Source: Haloquadratum walsbyi J07HQW1
GTDB lineage: Archaea; Halobacteriota; Halobacteria; Halobacteriales; Haloferacaceae
Direction of reading: 5' to 3'
Length of the DNA: 64,000 bases
Assembly: GCA_000415965.1 (NCBI GenBank)
Contig: KE356560.1
Span: 2,318,983 to 2,382,982, forward strand
Shown here: one piece after another, positions 4,192 through 11,009 of the stretch
How positions within the stretch are numbered: position 1 is the stretch's first letter
How the letters are laid out: each line of letters opens with the position of its first letter
Translations under genes and position numbers: made by a program
The notes under the pieces: model-generated
Told to the model about the DNA's origin: nothing
Databases searched by the model: none
The model's input: only the letters and a program-made list of their open reading frames with translations

Positions 4192-4752
4192 ATGAGTGCA
4201 CCGGCAGACTCAATCGAGATTCAGAATGTGGTCGCATCGACTGGGATTGGACAGGAACTCGACCTTGAAGCACTCGCTGAGGACCTTCCGGGGGCGGATT
4301 TCAATCCTGATAACTTTCCTGGATTAGTGTATCGGACACAGGAACCAAAGGCAGCAGCACTTATTTTTCGTTCAGGAAAAATCGTCTGCACAGGAGCAAA
4401 GAGTATCAATGATGTACATGATGCGCTTGGGATTATCTTCGAGAAGCTTCGTGGACTCAGTATTCCTGTCGATGAGGATCCGGAGATAACCGTTCAAAAC
4501 ATCGTTTCAAGTGCAGATCTTGGGCATACACTCAATCTGAACGCACTGGCAATCGGGCTCGGGTTAGAGGATGTCGAGTATGAACCTGAGCAGTTTCCTG
4601 GACTTGTGTATCGAATGGACCAACCAGAGGTAGTCATTTTGTTGTTTGGGTCCGGAAAAATCGTTATCACCGGCGGAAAGCAAACGAATGATGCCGCAGC
4701 GGCGGTTGAAGAAATTGTCGAGCGAATTGAGGATCTCGGTCTATTAAATTAA
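4192..4752 (+). CDS. tbp: TATA-box-binding protein (TBP)
   Basis: This 186-residue protein is the general transcription factor that binds the TATA box and recruits TFB and RNA polymerase. It shows the two-fold repeat of the family: IQNVVAS...FPGLVYR...GKIVCTGAKS in the first half and VQNIVSS...FPGLVYRMDQP...GKIVITGGKQ in the second. These stirrup and saddle motifs and the length are normal for an archaeal TBP, and the acidic composition is halophilic. The start follows a TATA box by 27 bases, so the message is probably leaderless. The gene lies upstream of, and divergent from, the rRNA operon. Haloarchaea often have several TBP paralogs; this copy is full length. Confidence 0.96.
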   Translation: MSAPADSIEIQNVVASTGIGQELDLEALAEDLPGADFNPDNFPGLVYRTQEPKAAALIFRSGKIVCTGAKSINDVHDALGIIFEKLRGLSIPVDEDPEITVQNIVSSADLGHTLNLNALAIGLGLEDVEYEPEQFPGLVYRMDQPEVVILLFGSGKIVITGGKQTNDAAAAVEEIVERIEDLGLLN

Positions 4753-4964
4753 TCTGAGCATGATCGCTGTGTCATAATATTGAATTGTCCGCTGTTCATA
4801 TTCGCTCAGGCTCAGCTTCGAGTGAATTTTGCACATATGGTATAATGTGTATGTCCGGTTTGCGCGTAGTAACACGGGGAGGGGTATTGACGACAATATA
4901 AGGATTGAGAGCAAAGAAGGGGAAATGTCGCAAGTGGTTTTCCTGTTGCAACGTAGTGTCGATA

Positions 4965-7900
4965 ATGAGCGAAGAGTCTGAATCTGATGGATCTGCGGAA
5001 TCTGCAGAATCTGCAGAGTCAATAGATGTGCAGACCGGACCAACGGCTGAGACGGATGATCACACACAGTCGGGTGAAGCAGGGACAACAAATACGCTTT
5101 CAACAGATCAGCTATATAACGTATTTGAGACTGCTGGGCGACCTGTTATTACCGCTTCGACGATTGCGCGTCATTTCTCGGAAAGTCAAGCGACGATAAC
5201 AGAACAGTTGTCGACACTAATCGATACTGGGGTAGTTGATCGGATTGCGGTTGATGATGACCCGGTTGTATATTATCCGACATCGCTTTCGGAGATGACG
5301 ACACGTGAGCGGATTGTTGTGTTTCCAGATCGCCGGGAAATTGTCGTTGATAATCCGACACAGTATACGCGTGCACAACTCACTCAGTTCGCGTATCTTG
5401 CCGATACCACTGGTAAGCGACAACCGATAGAGCAACGCGGACCACAGGTGGGTGAGGAGACGGCTGATCGAAGTGGTACCAATGTGAGTAATCCTGGGGA
5501 GACAACGGTCAGTGAGAACGTAGATTCAGATACAGATGCAGATACTGGGGTAAACACCTATACCCCACGGCAGTCTCAATCGCGTGGGTATCTCTATCGT
5601 GTGCGTCAGGAAGATATCTGGCAAGCACCGTTTGATGATCTCGGGACGCTCATTTCAGTGATTCGGTCAACACTTCCGCGGCGCGTTCCGGAATTAGAAT
5701 CTTGGGTTGAGACACAATGGAAACGAGCGAATCGGTTTCGACTCTTTACACATGATGATGGGTATGTGGTGCTCGAAGCCGCCTCAGAGAGCCTCATGGG
5801 GAATGTCGCACGACAGAAACTTTCAGAGGACCAGCTTCGAGCGCCAGTGTCGGATACTGAAAGTTGGGTCAACAGCGACGAGGTCGCTAGCGTAAAGCGC
5901 GTGTTGTACGAGGCGGGGTATCCAGTTGTCGACGAGCGTGACCTTGATACAGGCGACCCAATTGATGTCGATCTCACAGCCACACTTCGGGAGTACCAAC
6001 AGTCGTGGGTCGACACCTTCCTCGACCAGCAGGCGGGAGTGTATGTCGGTCCACCAGGTAGCGGAAAGACAATCGCCGCGACTGCGACTATCGCTGCAGT
6101 CGGTGGCGAAACCCTAATTTTGGTTCCAAGCCGAGAACTTGCCGCACAGTGGCGCAAATCGTTGACCGGTGAGTCGACACTGACCGACGACCAGATTGGA
6201 GAGTATCACGGCGGCGAAAAAAATATTCGGTCAGTGACAATTGCGACCTACCAGACTGCTGGGATGGACCGTCACCGACAGCTATTCGATTCCCGGAAGT
6301 GGGGTCTGATCGTCTACGACGAGGTCCAGCACATTCCAAGCGATGTGTTCCGCCGAAGTGCTGATCTGCAGACTTCTCATCGGTTGGGACTCTCCGTTCA
6401 CGGAGAGACAATTATTCCGGTCAAGCGCGGAGATACCGTGTCAGTTGAACCAATAGAAGAGTTTGTTTCAGACTATCTTGATGAGAAGTCAGGAATCAGC
6501 AGCGTGTCCGAAGTCGAGACGATTGGAGTAACTAAGCAAGGGAAGGTTGTTTGGACACCGGTCACTGCAGCGATGCGACATCGAAATACAGCAGATCTAT
6601 ACACGGTTCAAGCAGATAATGGGCAGAAAGTGACGGTCACCGAAGATCATTCGCTTCTTGTGTACGATTCGGAGGAGCGTGCTATCGTTGAACGAACACC
6701 AACCGAACTCGAAGAAGGAGAGTATCTACTACAGCCGACCACGGTTCCAGAAATTAACGACGAGCAATCCCGGATTGATGTACTGTCGTTATTGGATGAG
6801 GGATACATCCTCCTCAACGACGAGATTCCCGAGAGTGCGTTCGAGCCACTATACGACCAACAAACCGGAACGATCAACAATCGATATAACTGGAGATCTG
6901 GGGGATCACTTCCGATATCAGTCGCACGGGAGATAGAACTCGACCGAAGCTATATCGATGGAGTATACAAACAAGATAAACAGTATCAGATACCGCCATC
7001 AGTCGACATGGTCGATTTTGCTCGGCTTGCTGGGTTGTTCGTGGCAGATGGAGCGATGAGTGAGCGGTACGTCGAGTTCTATGCCACCGACTCGGCGGAG
7101 GGATCCGAAATAGAGGCTTTCGAGTCTGTTATTCGGGCTGTTGTTCCCGACGCAGAGCCGAATCGTATGCAGAGTGGACAAAACTGCACGACACTATGTG
7201 TCGGTGGTCCACTCATAGACGTACTCAAGCAGCTTGCTATTGACGATGGAGTCCGTCAGAAGTCTATCCCACCGTTCATCTTCTCAACCGAGAGCGCCCG
7301 AGAAGGGTTCATACAGGGAATCGAACTCGGAGACGGCTATCATCAACAGAGGTCTCAAGACAGAGAGTGCGCGACGATTTCGATGTCGAGTGAGGAATTG
7401 ACACAGGGTCTCAATCTCGTCCTGGCTGCAGGTGGGTGTGTCGGTGGTAACTATCGGCGAGCAGAGGATATTACTGCTCAAGATAGAAAACCCGATATCG
7501 TTGAAGACAGTCTTGTGCAGCTCAATCCGAAGAACCGATTCAAAACGCCGCGAAATGCGATAATTCCGTTTTCGGGTCAACTGCGCAAAGCCTACGGCTC
7601 GATAGGTAGGACTCCGAATCACAATAATGAACGTCAACGAACAAGGGTTGGTCCAACTCTCAAAAAGGGACTGATAGGACGTCAGCGGATTACCGCCGAC
7701 GAAATTGAACTTCTCGGTGAACACGGTGACATACCAGACGGAAGACGTCTTTTTGAAGCAGATGTCGCGATGTTGTCCATCGACAGTGTCACTCCTAGTT
7801 CCGACACCGAATACGTCTACGATCTGTCAACCGAAACCGAGAATTTCCTCGGGAATCATCTGTTCTGTCATAACTCGGCGACACCGGTCAGAGAGGATGA

Positions 7901-8531
7901 TAAAGAGTCAGAGATATTCACGCTGATTGGACCGCCAATCGGGACTGACTGGGCCGAACTGTTTGACGCTGGGTTCGTCGCCGAACCGGAGGTCGAAATT
8001 CGGTATGTGCCGTGGCGCGACGAAATGGCCCGAAACGAGTACGCGAGTGCAGACGGCCGCGAGCGGTATCAGTTGGCCGCGACAAACCCCGCGAAAATCG
8101 CCGAAATTCGGTATCTATGTAAGACCCACCCCAATTCGAAGACACTGATATTCGTTGACTATCTCGAGCAGGGAAAAGAAATCGCTGAGGCGTTAGATAC
8201 TCCCTTTATTAGTGGTGAAACACGCCACTACGATCGCCAACAGCAGTTCGAGGCATTCCGGAACGGCGAGCTACAGACACTGGTTGTCTCACGGATTGCC
8301 GATGAGGGGATCGATCTCCCTAATGCCGAGTTGGCGATTGTCGCCTCAGGGTTGGGTGGCTCGCGTCGGCAGGGTACCCAACGGGCTGGGCGGACGATGC
8401 GACCGGTCGGCAGCGCAATTATGTACGTGTTGGCAACTCGCGGAACGCGAGAGGAGGATTTCGCCCAACAGCAGATGCGACACCTTGCAGGCAAGGGAGT
8501 CCGGATTCAGGAAACGAACGTGAGCGAATAG
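4965..8531 (+). CDS. rad25: Rad25/XPB-type DNA repair helicase containing an intein
   Basis: This encodes a superfamily 2 DNA helicase of the XPB/Rad25 type, 1188 residues before and about 694 after protein splicing. After a Ser/Glu/Ala-rich N-terminus come a winged-helix-like segment (about residues 40-110), an acidic linker, and the helicase core: LREYQQSWVDTF, Walker A GPPGSGKT (about 363), motif II YDEVQH (about 448), and motif III RLGL-SATP, interrupted by the intein. The C-terminal lobe has KTLIFVDY, SRIADEGIDLP and motif VI QRAGRTMRP. ATG 4965 is chosen over an upstream TTG at 4905 because MSEESESDG is a typical acidic haloarchaeal start and the TATA-like AATATAAG at about 4895-4902 fits it. 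Known relatives act in nucleotide excision repair; the role here is inferred from the family. Confidence 0.92.
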   Translation: MSEESESDGSAESAESAESIDVQTGPTAETDDHTQSGEAGTTNTLSTDQLYNVFETAGRPVITASTIARHFSESQATITEQLSTLIDTGVVDRIAVDDDPVVYYPTSLSEMTTRERIVVFPDRREIVVDNPTQYTRAQLTQFAYLADTTGKRQPIEQRGPQVGEETADRSGTNVSNPGETTVSENVDSDTDADTGVNTYTPRQSQSRGYLYRVRQEDIWQAPFDDLGTLISVIRSTLPRRVPELESWVETQWKRANRFRLFTHDDGYVVLEAASESLMGNVARQKLSEDQLRAPVSDTESWVNSDEVASVKRVLYEAGYPVVDERDLDTGDPIDVDLTATLREYQQSWVDTFLDQQAGVYVGPPGSGKTIAATATIAAVGGETLILVPSRELAAQWRKSLTGESTLTDDQIGEYHGGEKNIRSVTIATYQTAGMDRHRQLFDSRKWGLIVYDEVQHIPSDVFRRSADLQTSHRLGLSVHGETIIPVKRGDTVSVEPIEEFVSDYLDEKSGISSVSEVETIGVTKQGKVVWTPVTAAMRHRNTADLYTVQADNGQKVTVTEDHSLLVYDSEERAIVERTPTELEEGEYLLQPTTVPEINDEQSRIDVLSLLDEGYILLNDEIPESAFEPLYDQQTGTINNRYNWRSGGSLPISVAREIELDRSYIDGVYKQDKQYQIPPSVDMVDFARLAGLFVADGAMSERYVEFYATDSAEGSEIEAFESVIRAVVPDAEPNRMQSGQNCTTLCVGGPLIDVLKQLAIDDGVRQKSIPPFIFSTESAREGFIQGIELGDGYHQQRSQDRECATISMSSEELTQGLNLVLAAGGCVGGNYRRAEDITAQDRKPDIVEDSLVQLNPKNRFKTPRNAIIPFSGQLRKAYGSIGRTPNHNNERQRTRVGPTLKKGLIGRQRITADEIELLGEHGDIPDGRRLFEADVAMLSIDSVTPSSDTEYVYDLSTETENFLGNHLFCHNSATPVREDDKESEIFTLIGPPIGTDWAELFDAGFVAEPEVEIRYVPWRDEMARNEYASADGRERYQLAATNPAKIAEIRYLCKTHPNSKTLIFVDYLEQGKEIAEALDTPFISGETRHYDRQQQFEAFRNGELQTLVVSRIADEGIDLPNAELAIVASGLGGSRRQGTQRAGRTMRPVGSAIMYVLATRGTREEDFAQQQMRHLAGKGVRIQETNVSE
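6393..7874 (+). mobile_element. intein with LAGLIDADG homing endonuclease in helicase motif III
   Basis: The segment encodes 494 residues in frame, from Ser (in RLGL/SVHGET) to the terminal His-Asn (FCHN/SATPVRE). Removing it restores the helicase motif RLGLSATPVRE perfectly. Splicing features seen: Ser at position 1, block B VTEDHS with its His, C-terminal HN, and Ser as the +1 residue. Two endonuclease motifs are present, LAGLFVADGA (about residue 685 of the precursor) and FIQGIELGDG (about 780), with acidic residues at both catalytic positions. It is therefore predicted to be able to splice and possibly to home. Insertion at the SAT motif, a catalytic hot spot, is typical of inteins. Confidence 0.92.
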
Positions 8532-9020
8532 CAATCTTATCCGGGAGACCAGCGCAATCTCCATTGCGTCCATCACGCGGTCAATGGTTTCAATATCTGG
8601 ATCGTACCACATATGCAAAACGCGGAAACTATTCTTTGTCAGGTCACCGAGACTCGTTGCGAGGACAATGTCATGTTTTCTGACGCGTTATTGAATCGCC
8701 TATGGCTCGCCAAGAGATGTAGAATCCAGTGACTGTCGAGGAGTCCCAGGCAAATTCAAGCTTGATTCCGAGTTTAGCGCCCCACCGTCGACAGTGTGTA
8801 GCGGTGTGTTGAGGATAGGCCGATTTGACGCCCTTATTAACTAACCGCGAGACGGCGGTATTCAACACGACGACATTCGCGCGGCGTACACGGAACTCCC
8901 GTCAGAGACGTCTTGCAACGGCAGCAGGGTCGTATATAGCGAGTTCGACACATGATTTTCAATGACCTCCGACGCCTAGTCACTGACCGCAGCGGTCTCA
9001 CCACATTGTGGTGCTGAAAC
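8532..9020 (-). pseudogene. remnant of a class V aminotransferase C-terminus
   Basis: No intact ORF is present. Joining minus-strand frames gives a string that looks like the C-terminal end of PLP enzymes of the class V/cysteine desulfurase family: YAARMSS...LNTAVSRLVNKGV near 8830-8930, then DIVLATSLGDLTKNSFRVLH and WYDPDIETIDRVMDAME near 8550-8670. The pieces are in different frames with stops between them, and the catalytic lysine domain is absent. I infer a decayed gene fragment; the family assignment is a pattern judgement. Confidence 0.4.
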
Positions 9021-9131
9021 ACTTCGGGGAGGATTCCAGACAGATGTCGAGTCGATCAGTCGGGACCGGTGTGTCGTCAACCAAGGAAACAGGATCGACC
9101 AGGTAATAACACACCGTACGTATCCGGTTTC

Positions 9132-9580
9132 TTAGCTCGGAGTGGTCCAGCGTGGCGGCGACAGACTGCTCGCCGACTCGGCTTCGGTAGGTGTGGTTTC
9201 GACTGCATTGAGGTCGTATATTGTCGAGATGGGCGTCGACTCGCCGTCGTAGTCATTGATGAGACCCGAAAACCGTTGCCGTAGGGTCCGTCTGAAATAC
9301 ACAGCACCCGGTTGTCCGACGCGACCAGCGAAGCAATTGCGGTAGCTCTGTCCCCACCAGGGACGATAACGTCGTGATCGGCGTCATAGACCGACTGGAA
9401 CTGCTCGTATTGGTTATAGAACTTGTCGTCGACGTTGAGATTCGGCTGCTGGTAGACCACTGTCTCCGGTGCTTTGGGTGAGACCGCAGTTGCTCTCGGC
9501 GTGAGTAACATACAGTACATGCGTGGTCGACTCATCAGCAGGGTGTAGTCTGGTGGCTCACCACGAGTCTCCGGCGTCAT
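9132..9580 (-). pseudogene. frameshifted hypothetical protein
   Basis: The minus strand reads a protein-like segment (about 9290-9480: VYQQPNLNVDDKFYNQYEQF, then DADHDVIVPGGDRATAIASL and ISDGPYGNG). At about 9268 the sensible reading jumps to another frame (FSGLINDYDGESTPISTIYD, then LNAVETTPTEAESASS) and stops at 9132. Halophile-style acidic composition continues across the join, so this is one gene broken by a single frameshift. I do not recognise the family. The first 30 residues of the longest ORF look random, so the true start is uncertain. Confidence 0.45.
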
Positions 9581-10553
9581 ACAAGCTGAGAGACCGTCAT
9601 ATGTCTAAGTGAACGCCCGGGCAAACTGGCTCTCGTGAATGATATGGAATCACAGGTCTCTGCGCAGTGGTACTGTTTTGCCGACCAATCCTCTCACTGT
9701 CGCTATCACTGTCAGAAGCTAGCTCACTGTTCGGCGAGTGTCTGCTAGTTGATTTCATCGGGGTGATGCCGCTTTTGCTCAACATCGACTGTTTTGATTG
9801 CATGATTATTTTGTCCCCACTAAAGTCGGATTGTACTCAGCATCATACTTACTCGCTGTCACCGGGCGCTCTGGTCGTTTTTGCCGTTTGGGTCAGCTCG
9901 CACCACGGTTTTTGAAAAATTGAGAAACCGTTTGCCACGACCGAAACAGGAGTCCTCGGCGGTGTGACCATCCGAGATGGGATTAAACTTGCCGCCGGGT
10001 TCAAAATCACCAGCGGCGAAGTCGACCGCAGACTTCTCACCATTACTTTTAGTTTCAACCCGTAGCAACTTTGTGAACGCACTCGTCGGCATCGGCGTTG
10101 ACCGACTCGAGTGGAAAAAGTGTGTGAGCAGCGACGAGAGCAGCGCGAATGACACAGAGTCAACTTTTCTAACTCGTCTCCTCTCAGTGGTCGGTCGTCA
10201 GTTCCTCGTAGCACTCGATGGCGAGTGCAACTTCGTGAACACTCGGGGGTTCTCGACCACATAGAGGTTGAGTCGGTCCCGGAGGTTCCAGACGATCCAT
10301 GCAGCGACTTCCTCATCGGATCGGCGAGTGACCTTCTGGAGATGGCGTGGCGGTTGTAGCCGCCGTTTCGGTGGTCTCCTTGGGGTCGCCGACGTGATTC
10401 CGGTCGCTTCCGAAGGTCGCATATCGTGGCTCCCCGTTCATACTGGGTGTGTGGTGGAGTTTAAACGTCGACGGTTCGGACTATGAGAGGGCGTGGCGAT
10501 GGACGGAAGAATGAGAATTCTTAAACATGAGTGAATGCCTAATACATAATGAA
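9581..10553. other. decayed intergenic region without an intact gene
   Basis: Several overlapping short ORFs lie on the minus strand between 9859 and 10422. One reads RRSDEEVAAWIVWNLRDRLN near 10310-10260, and an adjacent frame continues SVHEVALAIECYEELTTTER near 10240-10190. This suggests another frameshifted small gene of unknown family. The plus strand shows nothing convincing. A TATA-like ATTCTTAAACA near 10517-10527 may drive the following tRNA gene. Confidence 0.4.
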
Positions 10554-10627
10554 CCGCCCTTAGCTCAGCCTGGTAGAGCAGTCGACTGTAGATCGACTTG
10601 TCCCCCGTTCAAATCGGGGAGGGCGGA
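10554..10627 (+). tRNA. tRNA-Tyr (anticodon GTA)
   Basis: The sequence folds as a full cloverleaf: acceptor CCGCCCT with AGGGCGG, discriminator A, anticodon stem GTCGA/TCGAC around loop CTGTAGA, and T arm CCCCG-TTCAAAT-CGGGG. C1:G72 is the archaeal tyrosine identity pair. No intron is present and CCA is not encoded. Confidence 0.96.
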
Positions 10628-11009
10628 CTTCTTCGCCGAGTAATTGAGGGTCAATCGAGACAGCACAGTCGTGTGACCTTATCTCGACGTGTTTGGGTCG
10701 AACAGACCACTTGACCCGGGTAACTGCCGTCATACATTCGCGCACAGGTGAGTGTGCCTGATGATAAATAGAAGCTTTCGCCCGAAGTTGAGGATTGCCG
10801 TCAGTCGTTCGCGTAGCCCTTGTTTGGCGTCATGTTTTAGGAGCGCGTCAAACTTGACCCACGGAAGTAGGTCATCTCGACTTCAAGAATCTCCCTGCTC
10901 TACAACCAGCCATATGGGTCGGTGGTCTACAAGAAATTTCACCGAGGAGAACCTGTATCTTGGAAGCAACCCGATGAGTCATAGCCTGTGTCGTCTCCTT
11001 CCAGCAAGT
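10628..11009. other. gene-free stretch after tRNA-Tyr
   Basis: No ORF here resembles a real protein. Sequence near 10830-10900 (CAAACTTGACCC, ATCTCGACTTC) gives no recognisable motif on either strand. It lies inside the decayed zone between tRNA-Tyr and the acetyltransferase remnant. Confidence 0.4.

Follow-up and report, generated by a model that had tools for sequence, protein, structure and literature searches.

A predicted self-splicing LAGLIDADG intein before motif III of a Haloquadratum walsbyi XPB helicase lies in a tract with nearest kin in another genus

The window analysed here is a stretch of 64,000 nucleotides from Haloquadratum walsbyi J07HQW1. It contains a gene for an XPB/Rad25 helicase that carries what is very probably a full-length, bifunctional LAGLIDADG intein, inserted at a recurrent haloarchaeal XPB site that immediately precedes the motif III Ser. 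The intein is predicted to be self-splicing and is probably mobile. It lies within a tract, reaching from XPB codon ~280 to a tRNA-Tyr gene, whose import is shown by trees, informative sites and identity profiles and whose nearest kin is another genus (g11). On the cause of this import the evidence is divided. The features are listed in Table 1.

Table 1. Positions of the XPB gene, its intein and the imported tract in the window
Feature	Position	Strand	Basis
TATA-binding protein gene, left synteny anchor	4192..4752	+	ORF, synteny
XPB/Rad25 helicase precursor, 1188 aa (694 aa without intein)	4965..8531	+	ORF, profile and structure-database matches
N-extein, codons 1-476, ends HRLGL	4965..6392	+	translation
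Left recombination breakpoint zone in XPB, codons 279-287	5801..5823	.	informative sites, half-trees, identity profile
Foreign tract (genus g11-like), ~4.7 kb, intein inside	5823..10554	.	identity profile, sites, GC3, trees; right end by blastn
Intein, 494 aa, with LAGLIDADG endonuclease	6393..7874	+	translation, profile search, alignment, fold
Ser1 of intein (codon TCC)	6393..6395	+	translation, alignment
Block B TEDH, intein residues 83-86	6639..6650	+	position worked out from translation and alignment
LAGLIDADG motif 1, LAGLFVADG, intein residues 212-220	7026..7052	+	Asp219 invariant in 9/9
LAGLIDADG motif 2, IQGIELGDG, intein residues 307-315	7311..7337	+	Asp314 invariant in 9/9
C-terminal His493-Asn494 of intein	7869..7874	+	alignment
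C-extein, starts SATPVRED (+1 Ser, motif III, then RED)	7875..8531	+	translation
Decayed passenger gene, putatively aminotransferase-like, frame changes and stops	8550..9535	-	tblastn of the open G173 gene
Decayed remnant of 258-aa passenger ORF	9748..10341	-	tblastn
tRNA-Tyr(gta), right synteny anchor	10554..10628	+	synteny

The host gene is a single open frame from an ATG at 4965 to a stop at 8531. After excision of the intein the joint reads HRLGL-SATPVREDDK, as in the empty allele of the g11 genome G173, and the computed product has the length given in Table 1. The spliced core matches the solved structures of human XPB (E = 3.3e-46) and A. fulgidus XPB (2fwr, E = 2.4e-42), and its VREDDK segment aligns with human XPB just after motif III; the RED directly following motif III we take to be the motif of that name. 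The Pfam family ERCC3_RAD25_C is matched with 91.8 bits (cutoff 27). The unspliced protein stays below the cutoffs of the NCBIfam models NF045503 (352.2 bits of 610) and TIGR00603 (159.7 bits of 328.7), each match being broken into two stretches. An earlier sequence-only reading had placed the intein at motif III of a Rad25/XPB helicase and had its excision restore RLGLSATPVRE, and both statements hold. Its further statement that the insertion splits the SAT motif is incorrect: the intein lies between Leu and Ser (LGL/SATP), and the SAT triplet is whole. The further hosts of this allele and the mosaic origin of the gene lay beyond what such a reading can show. Because the intein immediately precedes it, the Ser of SAT is the +1 nucleophile. 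The same genome encodes a second helicase of XPB type, which is a weak match (36% over part of the core); the assembly, 89.62% complete, yielded no other full-length XPB.

The intein comprises residues 477-970 of the precursor and its translation runs from SVHGET to LFCHN, with exactly the boundaries proposed before. Its profile matches include Pfam Intein_splicing (E = 1.7e-21, 77.1 bits, cutoff 35.8), Pfam LAGLIDADG_3 (E = 1.2e-5, 25.9 bits, cutoff 22.5), which covers the second LAGLIDADG motif, and NCBIfam intein_Nterm (43.3 bits, cutoff 24.5); NCBIfam intein_Cterm is reached with 13.0 bits, below its cutoff of 15.6. In the nine complete copies that were aligned, Ser1, Thr83, His86, Asp219, Asp314, His493 and Asn494 are invariant, and the +1 Ser is present in all nine full-length hosts of this site. 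The intactness claimed for splicing residues (Ser1, block B His, terminal His-Asn, +1 Ser) and for both endonuclease motifs is thereby borne out. An AlphaFold model of the intein has a mean pLDDT of 64, with a poor last third. The Foldseek comparison of this model with the PDB returns two endonuclease-bearing inteins, PI-PkoII (2cw7, E = 1.8e-15) and the TliVMA intein (7qss, E = 1e-10), both as local matches with TM-scores of 0.31-0.35 and an rmsd of 15.7; the same two are again on top when a sequence profile is compared with PDB chains. Two mini-inteins, 5o9i and 5o9j, are matched at E < 1e-5, with low overall TM-scores and moderate model confidence.

Judged by Ser1, the block B TxxH, the His-Asn end, the +1 Ser and the Hint fold match, the intein is of class 1 type, and from residues and fold we infer both splicing and cleavage. 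Following the class 1 mechanism established for other inteins, an N-to-O acyl shift at Ser1 would start splicing, the C-extein Ser (the S of SAT) would attack, Asn494 would cyclise with the assistance of His493, and the exteins would close to form the 694-residue helicase. The endonuclease would cut empty XPB alleles at the site coding for RLGLSATP, and gene conversion would then copy the intein into the cut allele.

Full-length SAT-site XPB inteins are found in 9 of 392 genomes of the order, the window genome included, and the other eight are 47-52% identical to the window intein. Matches at E 1e-8 occur in 71 of the 392 genomes, only nine of them over all 494 residues; the remaining matches listed are partial, with 23-38% identity. 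All nine full-length inteins reside in XPB at the same place, before SAT or SAS. A tenth host (G707) contributes intein residues 1-70 only, at a contig end. A phylum-wide sample (392 genomes, overlapping the order sample) yields two genomes at E 1e-30, the window genome and G140, and a family sample 3 of 170 genomes at E 1e-20, one of them represented by fragments in J07HQW2. Scoring in these searches was restricted to the few best candidates of each genome. The XPB helicase core is found in 364 of the 392 genomes and the SAT site appears to be usually empty, since among the matches listed XPB mostly runs unbroken there. Interrupted XPBs were picked by hand from the matches listed (several matches or a weak best E). 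The 23 genomes re-searched, with the window's among them, comprise nine with the SAT-site intein, nine with an intein in motif II (G313 having both) and six with neither; two weak single matches, G096 and G176, lie outside this set. Because candidates were hand-picked from the best matches listed, the XPB intein count is a lower bound. A peptide scan of IMG/VR contigs with this protein only found no close relative, and phages gave a single weak, partial match (16% of the query). Plasmid carriage is seen in 1 of 72,556 records, a 342-kb replicon of Halorussus salilacus. The XPB with SAT intein on that plasmid (L096, NZ_CP099994.1 11127-14408) carries no annotation beyond DEAD/DEAH box helicase family protein.

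The second XPB intein site is located in motif II (DE/CHH). It holds Cys1 inteins of 475-482 aa with the motif LRGLFDAEG (L071-L076, L078, L088, L009), and the one that was scanned with Pfam (L071) has an HTH_3 domain too. First residue, motif and extra domain set this family apart from the SAT-site intein. The XPB of G313 (L009) contains both inteins at a spacing of 23 codons; that of the congeneric G250 has only the SAT-site one. Three SAT-intein hosts (L007, L011, L012) have RGD in place of RED, which is found in the other six.

Recent lateral movement of the intein is shown by the divergence between the congeneric species G129 and G170. The dS of their inteins is 0.027, compared to 0.33 and 0.37 for the exteins (Fisher p = 7e-13 and 2e-18, with site numbers worked back from dS). 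The differences amount to 23 in 1485 nt of the intein, 36 in 432 nt upstream and 55 in 654 nt downstream; outside the intein, the nearest ones lie 9 nt before its start and 3 nt behind its end. Since dS is far lower in the intein than in the exteins, these sequences have the intein transferred between the two lineages, or converted, long after their split. For the pair G313/G250 an endonuclease omega of 0.071 (codons 201-400) argues for endonuclease function having been kept; the corresponding value for G129/G170, 1.22, is derived from 2 synonymous and 7 other changes, a number too small to carry weight. The hosts are scattered on the extein tree (29 rows), which forces at least 3 changes. G313/G250 group with G129/G170 in the intein tree (100/98) and with G310 in the extein tree (94/85). 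A switch of the +1 Ser codon from AGC to TCN was considered as a mark of homing and discarded, TCN being usual in XPBs with an empty SAT site (39 of 44 rows). In G310 (L007), the stretch of 15 codons that follows the site is closer to G129 (0.87) than to members of G310's own genus (0.47-0.73), which may be a footprint of short co-conversion.

The XPB gene of the window has a mosaic structure: from codon 1 up to codon ~280 it is Haloquadratum-like, and the remainder, together with the intein, is g11-like. The helicase core is 94% identical to that of G173 and 69% identical to that of G060; for PurD, G060 is nearest at 88% (11 other genomes searched) and g11 reaches 67-68%. In trees of 18 rows, the left half groups with the Haloquadratum pair (100/99), and its grouping with g11 is rejected (p-AU 2e-5), whereas the right half groups with g11 (98/95), and its grouping with Haloquadratum is rejected (p-AU 4e-102). 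The breakpoint is drawn from 658 informative sites, with support of 235/280 on the left and 304/378 on the right. GC3 is 0.41 left of the switch as against 0.58 and 0.62 right of it, and 0.48 in the intein. The downstream DNA continues to match g11 up to tRNA-Tyr, where G060 has a short XPB-tRNA spacer only. Both passenger genes in this part are open in G173 and decayed in the window, while XPB and intein are still open; the assignment of the first passenger as aminotransferase-like comes from a reading of the G173 gene sequence. The TBP gene upstream and PurD, ~50 kb downstream, keep their places as in G060; the imported DNA has thus taken the position of the native allele. As the nearest kin of the tract is another genus, the native half of the helicase was replaced by homologous recombination. 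Of the informative sites in codons 477-488, which follow the intein, only 3 of 9 are g11-like (3 of 11 when J07HQW2 is taken as the second parent), and at least one further step in the history is therefore needed. Directly behind the site there is an excess of changes from G173, which is ordinary for this gene (23 of 207 windows are as high, this one included), and a co-conversion footprint in these codons is only suggestive.

A mosaic of this kind could be produced by an assembly chimera, given that the genome is a single contig, 89.62% complete and by inference metagenomic. We regard this as very improbable. A stretch of a J07HQW2 scaffold between N runs spans the left junction (window 4860-7232) with 99.07% identity, and a second assembled contig across this junction speaks against a chimera there; in addition, the frame is open across the left junction and the imported passengers have decayed. 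The right end of the tract is spanned by no contig seen except the window's own. The J07HQW2 record contains two fragments (L034, L035), bounded by N runs and 99% identical to the window XPB locus. They hold intein residues 1-280 and 440-494, respectively, ~228 kb apart, an arrangement that might be taken for a naturally split intein. The chance of this is negligible and the candidate was rejected: both pieces end in N runs, at scaffold gaps, and a whole native XPB is present in the same record. For these reasons the two contigs are likely misplaced between Lake Tyrrell assemblies.

Two accounts of the import itself have to be weighed. Tentatively, a break made by the homing endonuclease and repaired from a mating partner of another genus may have replaced the 4.7 kb and created a hybrid repair helicase. 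Alternatively, with about an even chance, the endonuclease had no role, and the tract stems from ordinary recombination between genera in which the donor XPB already contained the intein. The donor is in either case near genus g11 and absent from the genomes searched; either its allele already bore the intein, or the intein's own break would have driven the replacement. No intein-bearing donor was seen, XPB being empty in all four g11 genomes. In favour of ordinary recombination, the exteins of six other hosts (G074, G310, G140, G250, G129, G170) match their own genus or family best along the whole gene, except for the 15 codons of G310, and differences between G129 and G170 return within a few nucleotides of the intein. 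A foreign tract on the scale of kilobases was found in none of these six testable hosts (33 of 35 rows compared, without G175 and G002; G019 had no same-family reference and G313 was left out), which indicates that long co-conversion is not a habit of the SAT-site XPB intein. Ordinary recombination is opposed by the presence of the cut site within the tract and by the DNA identity of only 64% between the XPB part of the tract and G060—a level at which break-free recombination is rare.

The sequence-only reading had also made repair capacity dependent on splicing. This is overstated, lacks support and is made doubtful by published deletions of rad25/XPB. According to a study of Haloferax volcanii (PMC11276520), a quadruple rad25 deletion has no growth defect and is impaired in gene conversion, as are 3 of the 4 single deletions. 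XPB/XPD mutants of two other archaea, S. islandicus among them, are described as only slightly sensitive. A related proposal, which we consider improbable, is that the intein acts as a regulatory switch, with an inactive XPB precursor whose splicing is triggered by salt or stress. An insertion within a catalytic motif would be expected to leave the precursor inactive, and conditional splicing has been attributed to other haloarchaeal inteins; no report of it for haloarchaeal inteins was found in the open-access literature. Against a switch, the distribution is patchy (9/392 genomes), XPB is empty in the nearest kin and the intein has moved between species, which together form the pattern of a selfish element; moreover, the four rad25 genes are described as jointly deletable in Haloferax (PMC11276520).

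With regard to known systems, the intein adds a new allele and a new host to a well-known kind. It shares with archaeal LAGLIDADG inteins (MCM/CDC21, PolB, RFC, RNA polymerase A'', VMA) the Hint fold, the block motifs, two LAGLIDADG motifs and a conserved host motif, and its profile and fold matches are to the PI-PkoII and TliVMA/PhoVMA inteins. It differs from them in having Ser1 and a +1 Ser. To the other inteins listed it is similar over parts only, at the 23-38% identity given above, as opposed to the level seen among its allele mates. MCM is an AAA+ helicase and XPB belongs to SF2. The haloarchaeal MCM inteins likewise occupy more than one of several closely spaced positions in a helicase, and for them homing has been measured and co-conversion of the +1 residue described; MCM, however, is reported as essential, and the two intein sites of XPB are 23 codons apart. 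The 2014 survey of halobacterial inteins comprises 13 host genes and 24 sites, and its Table 1 (PMC4071816) includes neither XPB/Rad25 nor the site before the motif III Ser, in line with the earlier remark that XPB is a less familiar host. The helicase-b allele of the same survey (PMC4071816) is similar in that it, too, sits in an ATP-dependent helicase and has a single halobacterial member; the non-halobacterial members listed are two Bacillus and a nanoarchaeon, and it seems unlikely to be the same as XPB. Among the matches listed, and InBase aside, no report of an XPB intein was found in the open-access literature.

Haloarchaeal inteins thus gain XPB as a host, and the family of ten carriers (nine with a complete copy, one with a fragment) is available for comparison. 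Within this family G129 and G170 provide a clear case of recent intein movement, and the window provides an intein lying within a gene replacement across genera whose ends are mapped. The flanking DNA dragged along by homing would then range from almost none in G129/G170 to kilobases here, if homing was the cause. XPB, as a member of a family described as acting in Haloferax gene conversion (PMC11276520), is a host in which splicing, repair and homing could be studied together. If the import was driven by homing, the element would reside within a component of its own copying machinery, because Rad25 proteins act in that gene conversion, and homing would offer inteins a way to remodel helicases across genus boundaries.
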